Shown: piece after piece, positions 56,888 to 60,333 of the stretch
How positions within the stretch are numbered: position 1 is the stretch's first letter
Layout of the letters: every line of letters starts with the position of its first letter
Assembly: GCA_016191845.1 (NCBI GenBank)
Contig: JACPVF010000007.1
Coordinates: 1 to 64,000, forward strand
Reading direction: 5' to 3'
Length of the DNA: 64,000 nucleotides
Origin: Chloroflexota bacterium
Lineage (GTDB): Bacteria > Chloroflexota > Anaerolineae > Anaerolineales > Villigracilaceae
Program-made: the position numbers and the translations under genes
The notes under the pieces: model-generated
Databases searched by the model: none
The model's input: the letters and a program-made list of their open reading frames with translations, nothing else
What the model was told of the DNA's origin: nothing

Positions 56888-57661
56888 ATGGACTTACAAC
56901 TCACGGGAAAAGTTGCCATCGTCACAGGTGCAAGCCGTGGTATCGGACGCGCCATCGCCGAGACGCTCTCCACCGAGGGGATGCGACTCGTCCTGGCGGC
57001 ACGTTCACGCGAGCACCTGGAATCTCTCTCCGCTGCGCTGCCGACCGAAAGCCTGATCCTGCCCATTGACCTGAGCCAGCCCCAGGCGGCGGAAACAGTC
57101 GTCGAGGCGGCACTCGAACGGTTCGGAGTCATCGACCTGTTGGTCAACAATGCAGGCGCCACCCAGCGCGGCGACTTCCTCACGCTGACCGATGAACAGT
57201 GGGCCGACGGCTACGCCCTGAAATTCTTCGGCGCCATGCGCCTGTGCCGCGCTGCATGGACTCCCCTGCAAGCCAGCCGCGGGAGCATCGTCAACATCAT
57301 TGGCATCGGCGGGCGGACGGGCAGCGCCGAGTTTGCCATCGGTGGTTCCGTCAACGCCGCGTTGATGAACCTGACCAAAGTCCTTGCGGACCGTGGGATC
57401 AAAGACGGCGTGCGCGTCAACGCCATCAACCCTGGCTCGATTGCCACCGAACGGTTGCAGGTGCGCATCCGCGCAATAATGAAGGAAAAGAACCTTAGCG
57501 AAGAGGAAGCCACACGCCAGATGGCGTCCAGGCTGGGCATCGCCCGCTTCGGCCAACCCGCCGAGATCGCACGTGCTGTGGCCTATCTTGCTTCGCCGCA
57601 GGCCGATTACATCCAGGGCGCGATTATAGACATCGATGGAGGAGCCACGAGGACATTATGA
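56888..57661 (+). CDS. SDR-family protein lacking the YxxxK motif
   Basis: This 257-residue SDR has the TGASRGIG cofactor motif (14-21), NNAG, and the C-terminal INPGSIATERL and IIDIDGGA. Where the catalytic YxxxK belongs the sequence reads AEFAIGGSVNAA, so the Tyr is Phe and the Lys is absent. It may be non-catalytic or use another residue. It overlaps the DUF6504-like gene by 4 bases (ATGA). Confidence 0.82.
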   Translation: MDLQLTGKVAIVTGASRGIGRAIAETLSTEGMRLVLAARSREHLESLSAALPTESLILPIDLSQPQAAETVVEAALERFGVIDLLVNNAGATQRGDFLTLTDEQWADGYALKFFGAMRLCRAAWTPLQASRGSIVNIIGIGGRTGSAEFAIGGSVNAALMNLTKVLADRGIKDGVRVNAINPGSIATERLQVRIRAIMKEKNLSEEEATRQMASRLGIARFGQPAEIARAVAYLASPQADYIQGAIIDIDGGATRTL

Positions 57662-58023
57662 CCGACTTCACCCCCATCCACTTCTACGACCAGATCATCG
57701 AACCGATTTTCGATGTGCCGCCTGCACTGGAAAAGTCACCCACCTGTCCGCAGGGATTCATCTGGGAGAAGCGCAGCTATCGCGTGACCGAGATGCTGGC
57801 CGAGTGGAGTGACCTCACCCGCCGCGGCAGGATGGCGCGCAACATGCGTCCCAGCCATGCGTCCGTGGCAGCCACGCGCGGATCGCTGGGTGTGGGCCGC
57901 TTCTACTTCCGCGTCCGCACCGACTCGGGCCAGGTCTTCGACCTCTACTACGACCGCGCCCCGCAGGATGCCGACCGCCGCAAGGGACAATGGTTCTTGT
58001 ATCGTGAAATGCAAGAAAATTGA
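57658..58023 (+). CDS. DUF6504-like small protein
   Basis: This 121-residue protein has the FIWEKRSYRVTEMLAEW and GRFYFRVRTDSGQVFDLYYDRAPQ segments seen in DUF6504 proteins, which otherwise lack assigned function. It overlaps the SDR stop, so it is translated from the same message. A terminator follows. Confidence 0.6.
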   Translation: MTDFTPIHFYDQIIEPIFDVPPALEKSPTCPQGFIWEKRSYRVTEMLAEWSDLTRRGRMARNMRPSHASVAATRGSLGVGRFYFRVRTDSGQVFDLYYDRAPQDADRRKGQWFLYREMQEN

Positions 58024-58123: not shown

Positions 58124-58384
58124 CTACACCTGTTCGAAGCGTTCCACAGGGACCACGAACAACGTAGCACGCGGCTGGGCCGTACTCGACCCGAGTTTGG
58201 CGCGCATCAGGCCGATGGCCTCGTCCACGTGGCTGTCGTCCACGCCCACCAGCAGGGTGGCCACGCCACTGCGCAGGAATCCACCTGTGGAGGCGATACG
58301 AGTCACGCGAAAAGCTCCGCCCGTCAGGGCCTGGGTCAGGACATCGGCGTCCTGGTCTTTCACGATCACGATGATCATCTTCAT
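58124..58384 (-). CDS. DarA/PstA-type P-II-like protein (c-di-AMP receptor family), copy 2
   Basis: This 86-residue protein matches the cyclic-di-AMP receptor family (PF06153, DUF970) of DarA/PstA. It has VTRIASTGGFLRSGVATLLVG and the C-terminal ATLFVVPVERFEQV. The loop between strands is shorter than in DarA. It lies two bases downstream of copy 1. The P-II-like fold forms trimers, so it may bind c-di-AMP at subunit interfaces (known for the family; ligand here inferred). Confidence 0.82.
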   Translation of the reverse strand: MKMIIVIVKDQDADVLTQALTGGAFRVTRIASTGGFLRSGVATLLVGVDDSHVDEAIGLMRAKLGSSTAQPRATLFVVPVERFEQV

Positions 58385-58386
58385 GG

Positions 58387-58725
58387 CTAAATCTCCTCAA
58401 AGCGTTCGACCGGCAGAATGAAAACGGTGGCCCCGCCCACAGTCACAGGGACGGGCGCGGGCATCGGCATGGGTGAACCTTCCAGTGGCAGGGTCATATA
58501 CTCCACGCGCTGACGGCAGGTCTCGTGCAGAATATCCAGCACGGCCTGCTCGCGGCCTTCAGGCAGGCCGACCAACAGGGTCGCGTTGCGGCGTCCCAAA
58601 AAACCGCCTGCACTCGCCAGATACACCACCGACGCGCCCAACTGCTCCACGGCACGCACAGCCGTATCCTGATCCTGCTCTTGCACCACCGCCAGCACCA
58701 GGGACCGAATCTTTTCATTGTTCAT
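58387..58725 (-). CDS. DarA/PstA-type P-II-like protein (c-di-AMP receptor family), copy 1
   Basis: This 112-residue paralogue has VVYLASAGGFLGRRNATLLVG and VTVGGATVFILPVERFEEI, closely like the C-terminus of Bacillus DarA. It keeps the longer loop (about 75-95) that DarA uses in ligand binding. ATG 58725 is preceded by GGGAAG and overlaps the P-II-like gene by 11 bases. Tandem unlike copies suggest mixed trimers or two ligands. Confidence 0.82.
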   Translation of the reverse strand: MNNEKIRSLVLAVVQEQDQDTAVRAVEQLGASVVYLASAGGFLGRRNATLLVGLPEGREQAVLDILHETCRQRVEYMTLPLEGSPMPMPAPVPVTVGGATVFILPVERFEEI

Positions 58726-59080
58726 GGGGCTTCCCTTTCTGTAAACCATAGGCCTCCGCTACAGGCAGCACCATCAGCACGCCCGTATCGGGATCTTCCA
58801 GATTACCCACTACGCGTCGCGTGGCTGTCACCAGTGCATCCACCAGCGCATGATCCGAGACGGTGGTGAACAACGTGCGGCTGAGCGACTCGGGGGCCTC
58901 GTAAAAATCGTCCAGCGAAGGCATCAGCGGAATATCGTCGCGGATGCCGCTCTTCTGGCGGATGCGCCCCAGCCCGGTGCTGAAGAGGACCGTCACCCCG
59001 CCCACGCCCTCTGCCTCCCAGGCCGCCAGCACCTCCTCCAGATAATCAGGATCATGCAGGACGAACAAAACCAGATACAT
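58715..59080 (-). CDS. P-II-like signalling protein
   Basis: This 121-residue protein has a ferredoxin-like P-II fold: MYLVLFVLHDPDYLEEVLAAW, GVGGVTVLFSTGLGRI and TGVLMVLPVAEAYGL. It is unlike GlnB in its T-loop. Its start overlaps the stop of the antiporter (TGATG-type coupling), and its end overlaps the first DarA-like gene. P-II-like proteins in operons with transporters usually regulate that transporter by direct contact. Confidence 0.78.
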   Translation of the reverse strand: MYLVLFVLHDPDYLEEVLAAWEAEGVGGVTVLFSTGLGRIRQKSGIRDDIPLMPSLDDFYEAPESLSRTLFTTVSDHALVDALVTATRRVVGNLEDPDTGVLMVLPVAEAYGLQKGKPHEQ

Positions 59081-60333
59081 CAGGATTCCTCCTTGGGCGA
59101 TTCCATGTGGACCTCTGCCTGCTCCCGTTTCGACGGTCTTTCCGCCGCCCGCGCCTGGGACCGCGCAAAGAGCGCCCGCAACAAGGGCGGCGTGACCAGC
59201 GTGCTGACCAGTACCATGGCCACGATGGCCGAAAACTCGGGACCCGTCACCAGGCCCTGACGCACACCTACACTCGCTACGATCAATCCCACCTCACCGC
59301 GCGAGATCATACCCGCGCCCAACTGAGTCGACTCGAGCATGGACAAGCCCCCCAGCCTCGCCCCCAATCCTGAACCGATCCACTTGCCCAGCACGGCAAT
59401 CACAATGATGACCAGCGCCATCCAGTAGGCTTCGGTCTGCAACTCACGCACGTTGACCGTCAACCCGATGTTAACGAAGAAGATCGGCACGAATAGACCG
59501 TAAGCCATCGCGTGGAAACCGCCTTCGATGCGCTCCTTCTCGGGCACTCGTGCGGTCATCAACCCCGCCAGAAAGGCGCCTGTAATGGCGGCCATTCCAC
59601 CCAGCAATTCCGCAGCCAGGCCGTACATCAGCATGACCACCAACGCCAGTGTCAACGTGCCCTGACTGATCGGCAGGCGCGCAATGCGATGAATCAGCCA
59701 CGGCAAAGTCCATAAACCAAAAGCCACTGAAAGCACCAGGAAGGCCATCATACGGACGGCGATCAAGCCCACATCCGCCAGGGAGGCGGCTCCGCTCTGC
59801 ACGGCCAGGAAGACCGAGAGGAACAGGATCACCAAAATGTCGTCGAAGACAGCCGCGCCCAATAAGCTGAGCCCCACACGACTGCGCAGAACCTTGAGCT
59901 CAATCAACGTCTGGGCCGAAATGCTTACGGAAGTGGCACCCAGCGTCAGGCCGAGAAAGATGGAGGCGGCGGAGTCCATTCCAAACAGCGGACCCACTCC
60001 CCATCCCAGCAGGACGGGCACCACTACGCCCAGAGTCCCCGCCAGGGCCGAGACGCGCAGGTTGTGCGTCAACTCGCCAAGATGCAATTCCATGCCCGCC
60101 AGGAACATCAACAACAACACCCCCATCTCGCCCAGCTTGGTAATGAACTCGGCCAGATTTTCATTGAGGAAAGGCAGGTGCATCACGTTGAACAGGGAAG
60201 GGCCGAGGATCACGCCCACCAACAACTCACCCAGCACCGATGGCTGCCCGAATCGAATGCTGATGTATCCCGCCATCTTGGCAGAGAGCAGCAAGATCGA
60301 AAGCAGGAGGGCGAACTGTAGGAAGGCAGTCAT
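59080..60333 (-). CDS. CPA2-family cation/proton antiporter (KefB/NhaS-like)
   Basis: This 417-residue protein has about twelve membrane helices, FGQPSVLGELLVGVILGPS near the N-terminus, FDDILVILFLSV (acidic ion site) and GMISRGEVGLIVASVG. It exchanges K+ or Na+ for H+. It ends at a charged tail (SQARAAERPSKREQ) and has no RCK/TrkA-N domain of its own. The start follows a TATACT box by 7 bases. The next three genes overlap or abut it and encode small P-II-like proteins that could supply the missing regulation. Confidence 0.88.
   Translation of the reverse strand: MTAFLQFALLLSILLLSAKMAGYISIRFGQPSVLGELLVGVILGPSLFNVMHLPFLNENLAEFITKLGEMGVLLLMFLAGMELHLGELTHNLRVSALAGTLGVVVPVLLGWGVGPLFGMDSAASIFLGLTLGATSVSISAQTLIELKVLRSRVGLSLLGAAVFDDILVILFLSVFLAVQSGAASLADVGLIAVRMMAFLVLSVAFGLWTLPWLIHRIARLPISQGTLTLALVVMLMYGLAAELLGGMAAITGAFLAGLMTARVPEKERIEGGFHAMAYGLFVPIFFVNIGLTVNVRELQTEAYWMALVIIVIAVLGKWIGSGLGARLGGLSMLESTQLGAGMISRGEVGLIVASVGVRQGLVTGPEFSAIVAMVLVSTLVTPPLLRALFARSQARAAERPSKREQAEVHMESPKEES

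Follow-up and report, generated by a model that had tools for sequence, protein, structure and literature searches.

A paired DarA/PstA-type candidate c-di-AMP receptor encoded beside, and in relatives fused to, cation/proton antiporters of Anaerolineales

The window analyzed here, a stretch of 64,000 nucleotides of contig JACPVF010000007.1 from a Chloroflexota bacterium of the Villigracilaceae, contains a tight four-gene row on the minus strand (58124-60333) that encodes a CPA2-type antiporter, a P-II-like protein, and two proteins of the DarA/PstA type, a long and a short one, for which we coined the names DARL and DARS. Based on gene order, on natural fusions in related genomes, and on the residues kept in each protein, we propose that DARL and DARS are a divided receptor that may sense c-di-AMP at a composite site and may control the antiporter, and we put the probability of this reading at about 0.55.

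The genes of the row are closely packed: the P-II-like gene and the stop codon of the antiporter gene have one base in common, the DARL and P-II-like genes overlap over 11 bases, and the DARS gene starts 2 bases after the DARL gene (Table 1). The start of DARL was taken as the ATG at 58725, and the open-reading-frame list has 58749. The initial annotation, which described an antiporter lacking RCK/TrkA-N domains followed by a P-II-like gene and two DarA-type genes with overlaps or a 2-base gap, was confirmed by the coordinates and the Pfam matches. The neighboring gene at 57658-58023 of the window, convergent to the operon, encodes a DUF6504 protein (PF20114, 104.1 bits).

Table 1. Genes of the operon, with positions in the window
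Product	Position	Strand	Length	Assignment
CPA2-type monovalent cation/proton antiporter	59080..60333	-	417 aa	PF00999, 208.7 bits
P-II-like protein	58715..59080	-	121 aa	PF00543, 21.2 bits (sub-threshold), and AlphaFold2 model
DARL, long DarA/PstA-type protein	58387..58725	-	112 aa	PF06153, 79.6 bits
DARS, short DarA/PstA-type protein	58124..58384	-	86 aa	PF06153, 80.3 bits

The operon antiporter passes PF00999 (cut-off 26.2 bits), and its best NCBIfam match is the CPA2 subfamily model TIGR00932, with 182.4 bits, under the cut-off of 238.3. Pfam at E<=1 detected no TrkA_N, TrkA_C, RCK_C, USP, or other second domain in it, so that it consists of the transmembrane part alone. The host genome (4.63 Mb, 99% complete) has three PF00999 genes including this one, and the products of both others carry cytosolic domains, TrkA_N and TrkA_C in one and Usp in the other. 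In the latter (L287:693-2654, G000:C10), the Usp domain is C-terminal; the Usp domain type binds c-di-AMP in KdpD of Staphylococcus aureus (PMC10243994).

In the whole host genome, PF06153 matches no proteins but DARL and DARS. As a rough estimate with 4300 genes assumed, the chance of a PF00999 gene lying at most two genes upstream of one locus is about 0.0014. Because the sole two PF06153 genes adjoin a gene of the PF00999 family, which has just three members in the genome, and the row is found again in relatives, clustering by chance is unlikely. A search of the host genome for a diadenylate cyclase, in keeping with the c-di-AMP link suggested at the outset, returned one CdaA-like gene for a membrane protein, which is followed by a gene whose product resembles YbbR/CdaR in sequence appearance. 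Diadenylate cyclase genes were found in 116 of 121 genomes of the order, and only 4 of the 80 PF06153-positive genomes of the order, all of them drafts, had no detected cyclase. The c-di-AMP riboswitch RF00379 gave no match in the host genome; this result and the four genomes with no detected cyclase count against the proposed reading.

Both DARL and DARS pass PF06153 (CdAMP_rec, cut-off 27 bits), the match of DARS spanning only positions 1-62 of the 109 in the profile. Neither reaches the NCBIfam DarA equivalog NF058593 (DARL 88.8 and DARS 77.7 bits; cut-off 140). The AlphaFold2 model of DARS has a mean pLDDT of 91.2, and its best structural matches are DarA/PstA proteins of Firmicutes. The DarA-like C-terminal end that had been pointed out in the copy at 58387 was borne out, as VGGATVF lines up with the S. 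aureus and Listeria PstA sequences. A tree was built from a sample of 45 of 116 DARL, 46 of 116 DARS, and 20 of 31 plus 12 of 25 single-DarA controls; DARS came out as a single group (100/97), and DARL fell on one side of a branch (90/85), in a tree whose bootstrap had not settled, in which several long branches were flagged, and where support for placing DARS next to Bacillota DarA is weak. In two genomes of the class, DARL and DARS are encoded head to tail in a single ORF (L246:1255-1923 and L247:2420-3160). Some genomes of the order also carry a lone third DarA-like gene of 106-117 aa apart from the pair (L110, L117, L132, L148, L149, and L150), and these copies were kept out of the residue table described below. 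In the viral contigs searched, there was one weak match of 47 residues.

Among the matches listed, PF06153 is present in 208 of the 297 genomes sampled from the class and in 80 of the 121 sampled from the order. The census was taken on loci of 81 genomes. Of the 79 PF06153-positive genomes in the order sample besides the host, 73 were included (G334, G352, G368, G375, G387, and G393 were left out), together with 8 more of the family; the loci were read with profiles built from sequences of this analysis. The counts run over related genomes. In 30 of the 81 genomes, representing 8 families, a CPA1 Na+/H+ antiporter carries DARL as a C-terminal fusion, and in another 12 an unfused antiporter gene lies just upstream of DARL (11 CPA2, 1 CPA1). 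The order CPA2, P-II-like, DARL, DARS was found in 9 other genomes from three families, and the same order without the P-II-like gene in 2 (G055 and G184), so the arrangement proposed initially is conserved in relatives. Within the family, the 20 members besides the host divide into 4 with the fusion, 9 with an antiporter upstream, 3 with only a hydrolase gene, and 4 with no flagged partner. DARS accompanies DARL in every census genome that has the latter (78/78), including those in which it is not adjacent to the fused gene. DARS alone was seen in 3 of the 81 genomes among the matches listed, where unlisted copies may exist. Single DarA genes of the class are arranged differently: by eye and motif reading, 8 of 10 other class loci have the gene next to a thymidylate kinase-like gene or at a distance of one gene from it, and the DarA/PstA gene of Firmicutes is in an operon with thymidylate kinase (PMC4475381).

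Over all loci, there were 41 fusion ORFs in 39 loci, each joining DARL to a CPA1 antiporter. DARS follows directly downstream in 32 of the 41, and in G318, G329, G356, G362, and G382 it is located elsewhere in the genome than the fused gene. Pfam confirmed both PF00999 and PF06153 in the three fusions scanned, and one fusion also scores above the cut-off of the curated Na+/H+ antiporter model TIGR00831 (309.5 versus 279.6 bits). Assembly faults were considered as the source of the fusions and rejected, given 41 ORFs in 39 loci, with 30 genomes of 8 families and 8 ORFs in named contigs. In G253, one CPA1-DARL gene is split into two overlapping frames (L267:1584-3487), a 364-aa piece of which is among the 41 ORFs, and an intact copy is present in L268.

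The fusions and the operon appear to be two forms of one link, since an unfused CPA1 gene (517 aa) is followed by DARL and DARS in a genus-level relative set (L092). An Anaerolineales contig (L168) holds both antiporter kinds in one row, each with its own DARL and DARS after it: hydrolase, CPA1-DARL fusion, DARS, CPA2, P-II-like, DARL, DARS. Because DARL is fused to an ion antiporter in relatives, an antiporter is the likely target of the DarA-type pair; the conserved order and the CPA1-DARL fusions support the DarA-antiporter link suggested initially with stronger evidence than was then at hand. None of the 41 fusion ORFs involves a CPA2 antiporter, so the presumed contact with the operon's own antiporter rests on gene order.

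DARL-DARS pairs also occur without an antiporter alongside, in nearly half of the census: 28 of the 81 genomes have DARL with no flagged partner, 8 have a glycoside hydrolase-like gene as its sole upstream partner, and 3 are those in which only DARS was seen. The pairs without a partner and those with only the hydrolase indicate that DARL-DARS cannot serve antiporters alone, and the description of the row as a self-contained antiporter module was too strong. The same counts favor the alternative that the pair and the antiporter share nothing more than co-expression in the osmotic response, with the target of DARL-DARS elsewhere, for example in the glycoside hydrolase or a metabolic enzyme, and the hydrolase-like gene directly upstream of 19 of the 41 fusion ORFs points the same way. 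However, co-expression hardly accounts for a covalent DARL-CPA1 fusion in 30 of 81 genomes, and we regard this explanation as unlikely, although it is the one that fares best among the alternatives.

The hydrolase-like neighbor is a protein of about 790 aa (L088:2623-5019 and relatives) that matches PF22422 MGH1-like with 69.1 bits (cut-off 27), and its gene also precedes several DARL-DARS pairs, such as those in the cultured strains Bellilinea caldifistulae GOMI-1 (L203) and Longilinea arvoryzae KOME-1 (L204). Its other matches in Pfam, NCBIfam, and the PDB were weak, and none gave a substrate; a hydrolase of compatible solutes would fit osmotic control. The host genome has one hydrolase-like copy, at G000:C8:305354-307720 (L288), approximately 245 kb from the operon. 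In several partnerless loci (L098, L099, L131, L135, L138, L145, and L147), a small cysteine-rich protein (EEWESLCDGC.KCCL) is encoded upstream of DARL and, as a recurring neighbor, could be a further partner for DARL-DARS.

In Listeria PstA, the ligand sits between subunits, contacted on the T/B-loop side by GGFL 34-37, N41, G94, T97, and F99 and on the facing subunit by residues 26-28, G47, and H108 (PMC4475381). We refer to these as side A and side B and use the Listeria numbering. Operon DARL keeps side A, with GGFL, F36, N41, G94, G95, F99, and the VGGATVF end of the B-loop, and has lost much of side B, where V28 and E108 are found. Operon DARS keeps side B (R26, T28, G47, and Q108); on side A it has V41, and its B-loop is lost. 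A PstA-like site is thus incomplete in either protein taken singly, and the initial view of the two as separate c-di-AMP receptors is not supported, each having one side of the known inter-subunit site.

The same division was seen over 116 distinct adjacent DARL/DARS pairs, which are akin to one another (29 of them fused) and were scored with site criteria set after the residue table had been seen. DARL side A together with DARS side B is complete in 81 of these pairs and the reverse combination in none; a complete site within one protein occurs in 14 DARL and no DARS. By comparison, 55 of 56 single-gene DarA controls have a complete site (30/31 and 25/25). The composite site is present in 15 of 29 fused pairs versus 66 of 87 separate ones, and 35 of the 116 pairs lack even a composite site by the criteria used. 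As read from the residues, the 14 DARL with a complete site of their own and these 35 pairs count against the explanation by a divided receptor. The pairs came from loci L065-L154 and L165-L210 and the window, with 3 identical pairs merged and with lone DARL or DARS genes and the later loci L246-L285 left out. The first control set (n=31) covers L004-L033, L155-L161, L163, and L164, with identical rows merged; the second (n=25 after merging) covers L216-L244, mostly Bacillota, with L217, L218, L229, and L240 from Chloroflexota. L211-L215 were not part of the controls.

These residues also bear on whether the ligand has changed. DARL and DARS could control the antiporter without c-di-AMP, by sensing another nucleotide or as plain structural adaptors, as might be expected from the absence of a whole PstA site in either chain and from scores far below the DarA equivalog cut-off for both. 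Most DARS and some DARL no longer have N41, whose replacement by alanine in Listeria PstA weakens binding to about 140 umol/L (PMC4475381). On the other hand, the losses are reciprocal, leaving the DARL/DARS interface complete in 81 of the 116 pairs in one orientation and in none in the other, and we judge a switch of ligand to be rather improbable.

The remaining gene of the operon encodes the P-II-like protein, whose PF00543 score lies under the Pfam cut-off of 25. Its AlphaFold2 model has a mean pLDDT of 76.6, with low values in the loop region; in Foldseek, P-II/GlnK structures were on top, and the best 50 matches listed were all P-II-type or P-II-like, e.g., TT1020 and PotN, so that the protein as modeled has a P-II fold. 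In the place of the T-loop, it has a long conserved loop, GLGRIR...DDIPLMPSL. TGxxGDGKI is the Walker-A-like B-loop motif of P-II (PMC4475381). By eye in the alignment, this motif is absent from the P-II-like protein, which has GxLxxPxTGxLxVLPV there, without GDGKI.

Close relatives of the P-II-like protein were found at 26 places in 22 of 201 genomes of the phylum sample. The gene lies directly after a CPA2 gene at all 17 of the strongest places, the window's own included, and at 1 of the 9 weaker ones. DARL-DARS is absent from many of these places, and the CPA2/P-II-like pair occurs without DARL at L292, L294, and L296-L305 in other Chloroflexota, which also weakens the notion of a self-contained module. 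Since this pair is found without DARL-DARS, the operon seems to join an older CPA2/P-II-like pair to a DARL-DARS pair. The three small proteins were also considered as three copies of one regulator; this was rejected, as the P-II-like protein falls in a different branch of the fold and, elsewhere in the Chloroflexota, is encoded after CPA2 genes where DARL is absent. That the P-II-like protein alone controls the CPA2 antiporter, with DARL-DARS a recent insertion behind it for an unrelated duty, would agree with the loci lacking DARL, but CPA2, DARL, and DARS are kept without the P-II-like gene in G055 and G184, where DARL-DARS follows the antiporter on its own account, and this is the least probable explanation.

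In the preferred reading, that of a divided receptor, the antiporter and its own cytosolic control unit would be encoded in one operon as separate proteins. DARL and DARS would be the halves of a DarA/PstA receptor and form a mixed ring of the P-II type, in which the T/B-loop face of DARL meets the facing side of DARS and c-di-AMP would bind at that composite interface. Occupancy by c-di-AMP may then alter the contact of the ring with the antiporter and thereby cation/proton exchange; by analogy with CpaA, described below, we would guess that c-di-AMP favors cation export. The P-II-like protein is presumably the older partner of this CPA2 type, and a second nucleotide signal probably enters through it. 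CPA antiporters form dimers. In the fusions, two of the ring members would be the DARL domains of the antiporter dimer and the third would be DARS, giving one composite site per ring. Tentatively, this idea could be extended to both arrangements, with the split, hetero-oligomeric receptor as the answer to a problem of symmetry: the two DARL of a dimeric antiporter, fused or bound, and one free DARS would form a ring with one c-di-AMP site, a single molecule could lock or release the antiporter halves, and the target of DarA would be Na+/K+:H+ antiporters. We consider this extended version possible but doubtful.

P-II proteins encoded beside the transporter they control are familiar from GlnK-AmtB and SbtB-SbtA. 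As in the operon, a small P-II-fold regulator adjoins a transporter gene in these systems; the transporters and ligands are different, and we know of no split receptor and no fusion of the DARL-antiporter kind among them. The DarA/PstA proteins of Firmicutes (PDB 4RLE, 4RWW, 4D3H, and 4WK1) share PF06153, the GGFL T-loop, and the P-II fold with the pair. However, they are a single protein that forms a homotrimer, whereas here there are two genes with half a site each, beside an antiporter.

Control of an antiporter by c-di-AMP, as proposed here, is exemplified by the K+/H+ antiporter CpaA of S. aureus, in which export is activated by high c-di-AMP (PMC10243994). CpaA binds c-di-AMP with its own RCK_C domain; the operon antiporter has no RCK_C, and the DarA-type ring is the proposed receptor. 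In Bacillus subtilis, cells devoid of c-di-AMP are rescued by a change in the CPA1 antiporter NhaK that is thought to increase the export of potassium (PMC7857571), which indicates that CPA1 activity and c-di-AMP meet in potassium balance. Unlike the CPA1-DARL fusions, NhaK is described in the available text of that study without a DarA domain (PMC7857571).

What would be new here is the type of receptor unit, as c-di-AMP control of an antiporter is already known. In the open-licence literature, we found no report of a DarA-antiporter link or fusion, of a split DarA, or of c-di-AMP in Chloroflexota. The role of DarA/PstA as a c-di-AMP receptor was recognized about a decade ago. In the texts available, DarA was without an identified function in 2021 (PMC7857571), and the partners of PstA were still called unknown in December 2025 (PMC12802241). 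The natural DarA-antiporter fusions point to a directly testable class of target. If the reciprocal loss is read correctly, the pair would be a P-II receptor in two obligate halves with a measurable binding stoichiometry, and the DarA-antiporter link would widen the control of ion balance by c-di-AMP to Chloroflexota and to antiporters without RCK domains.
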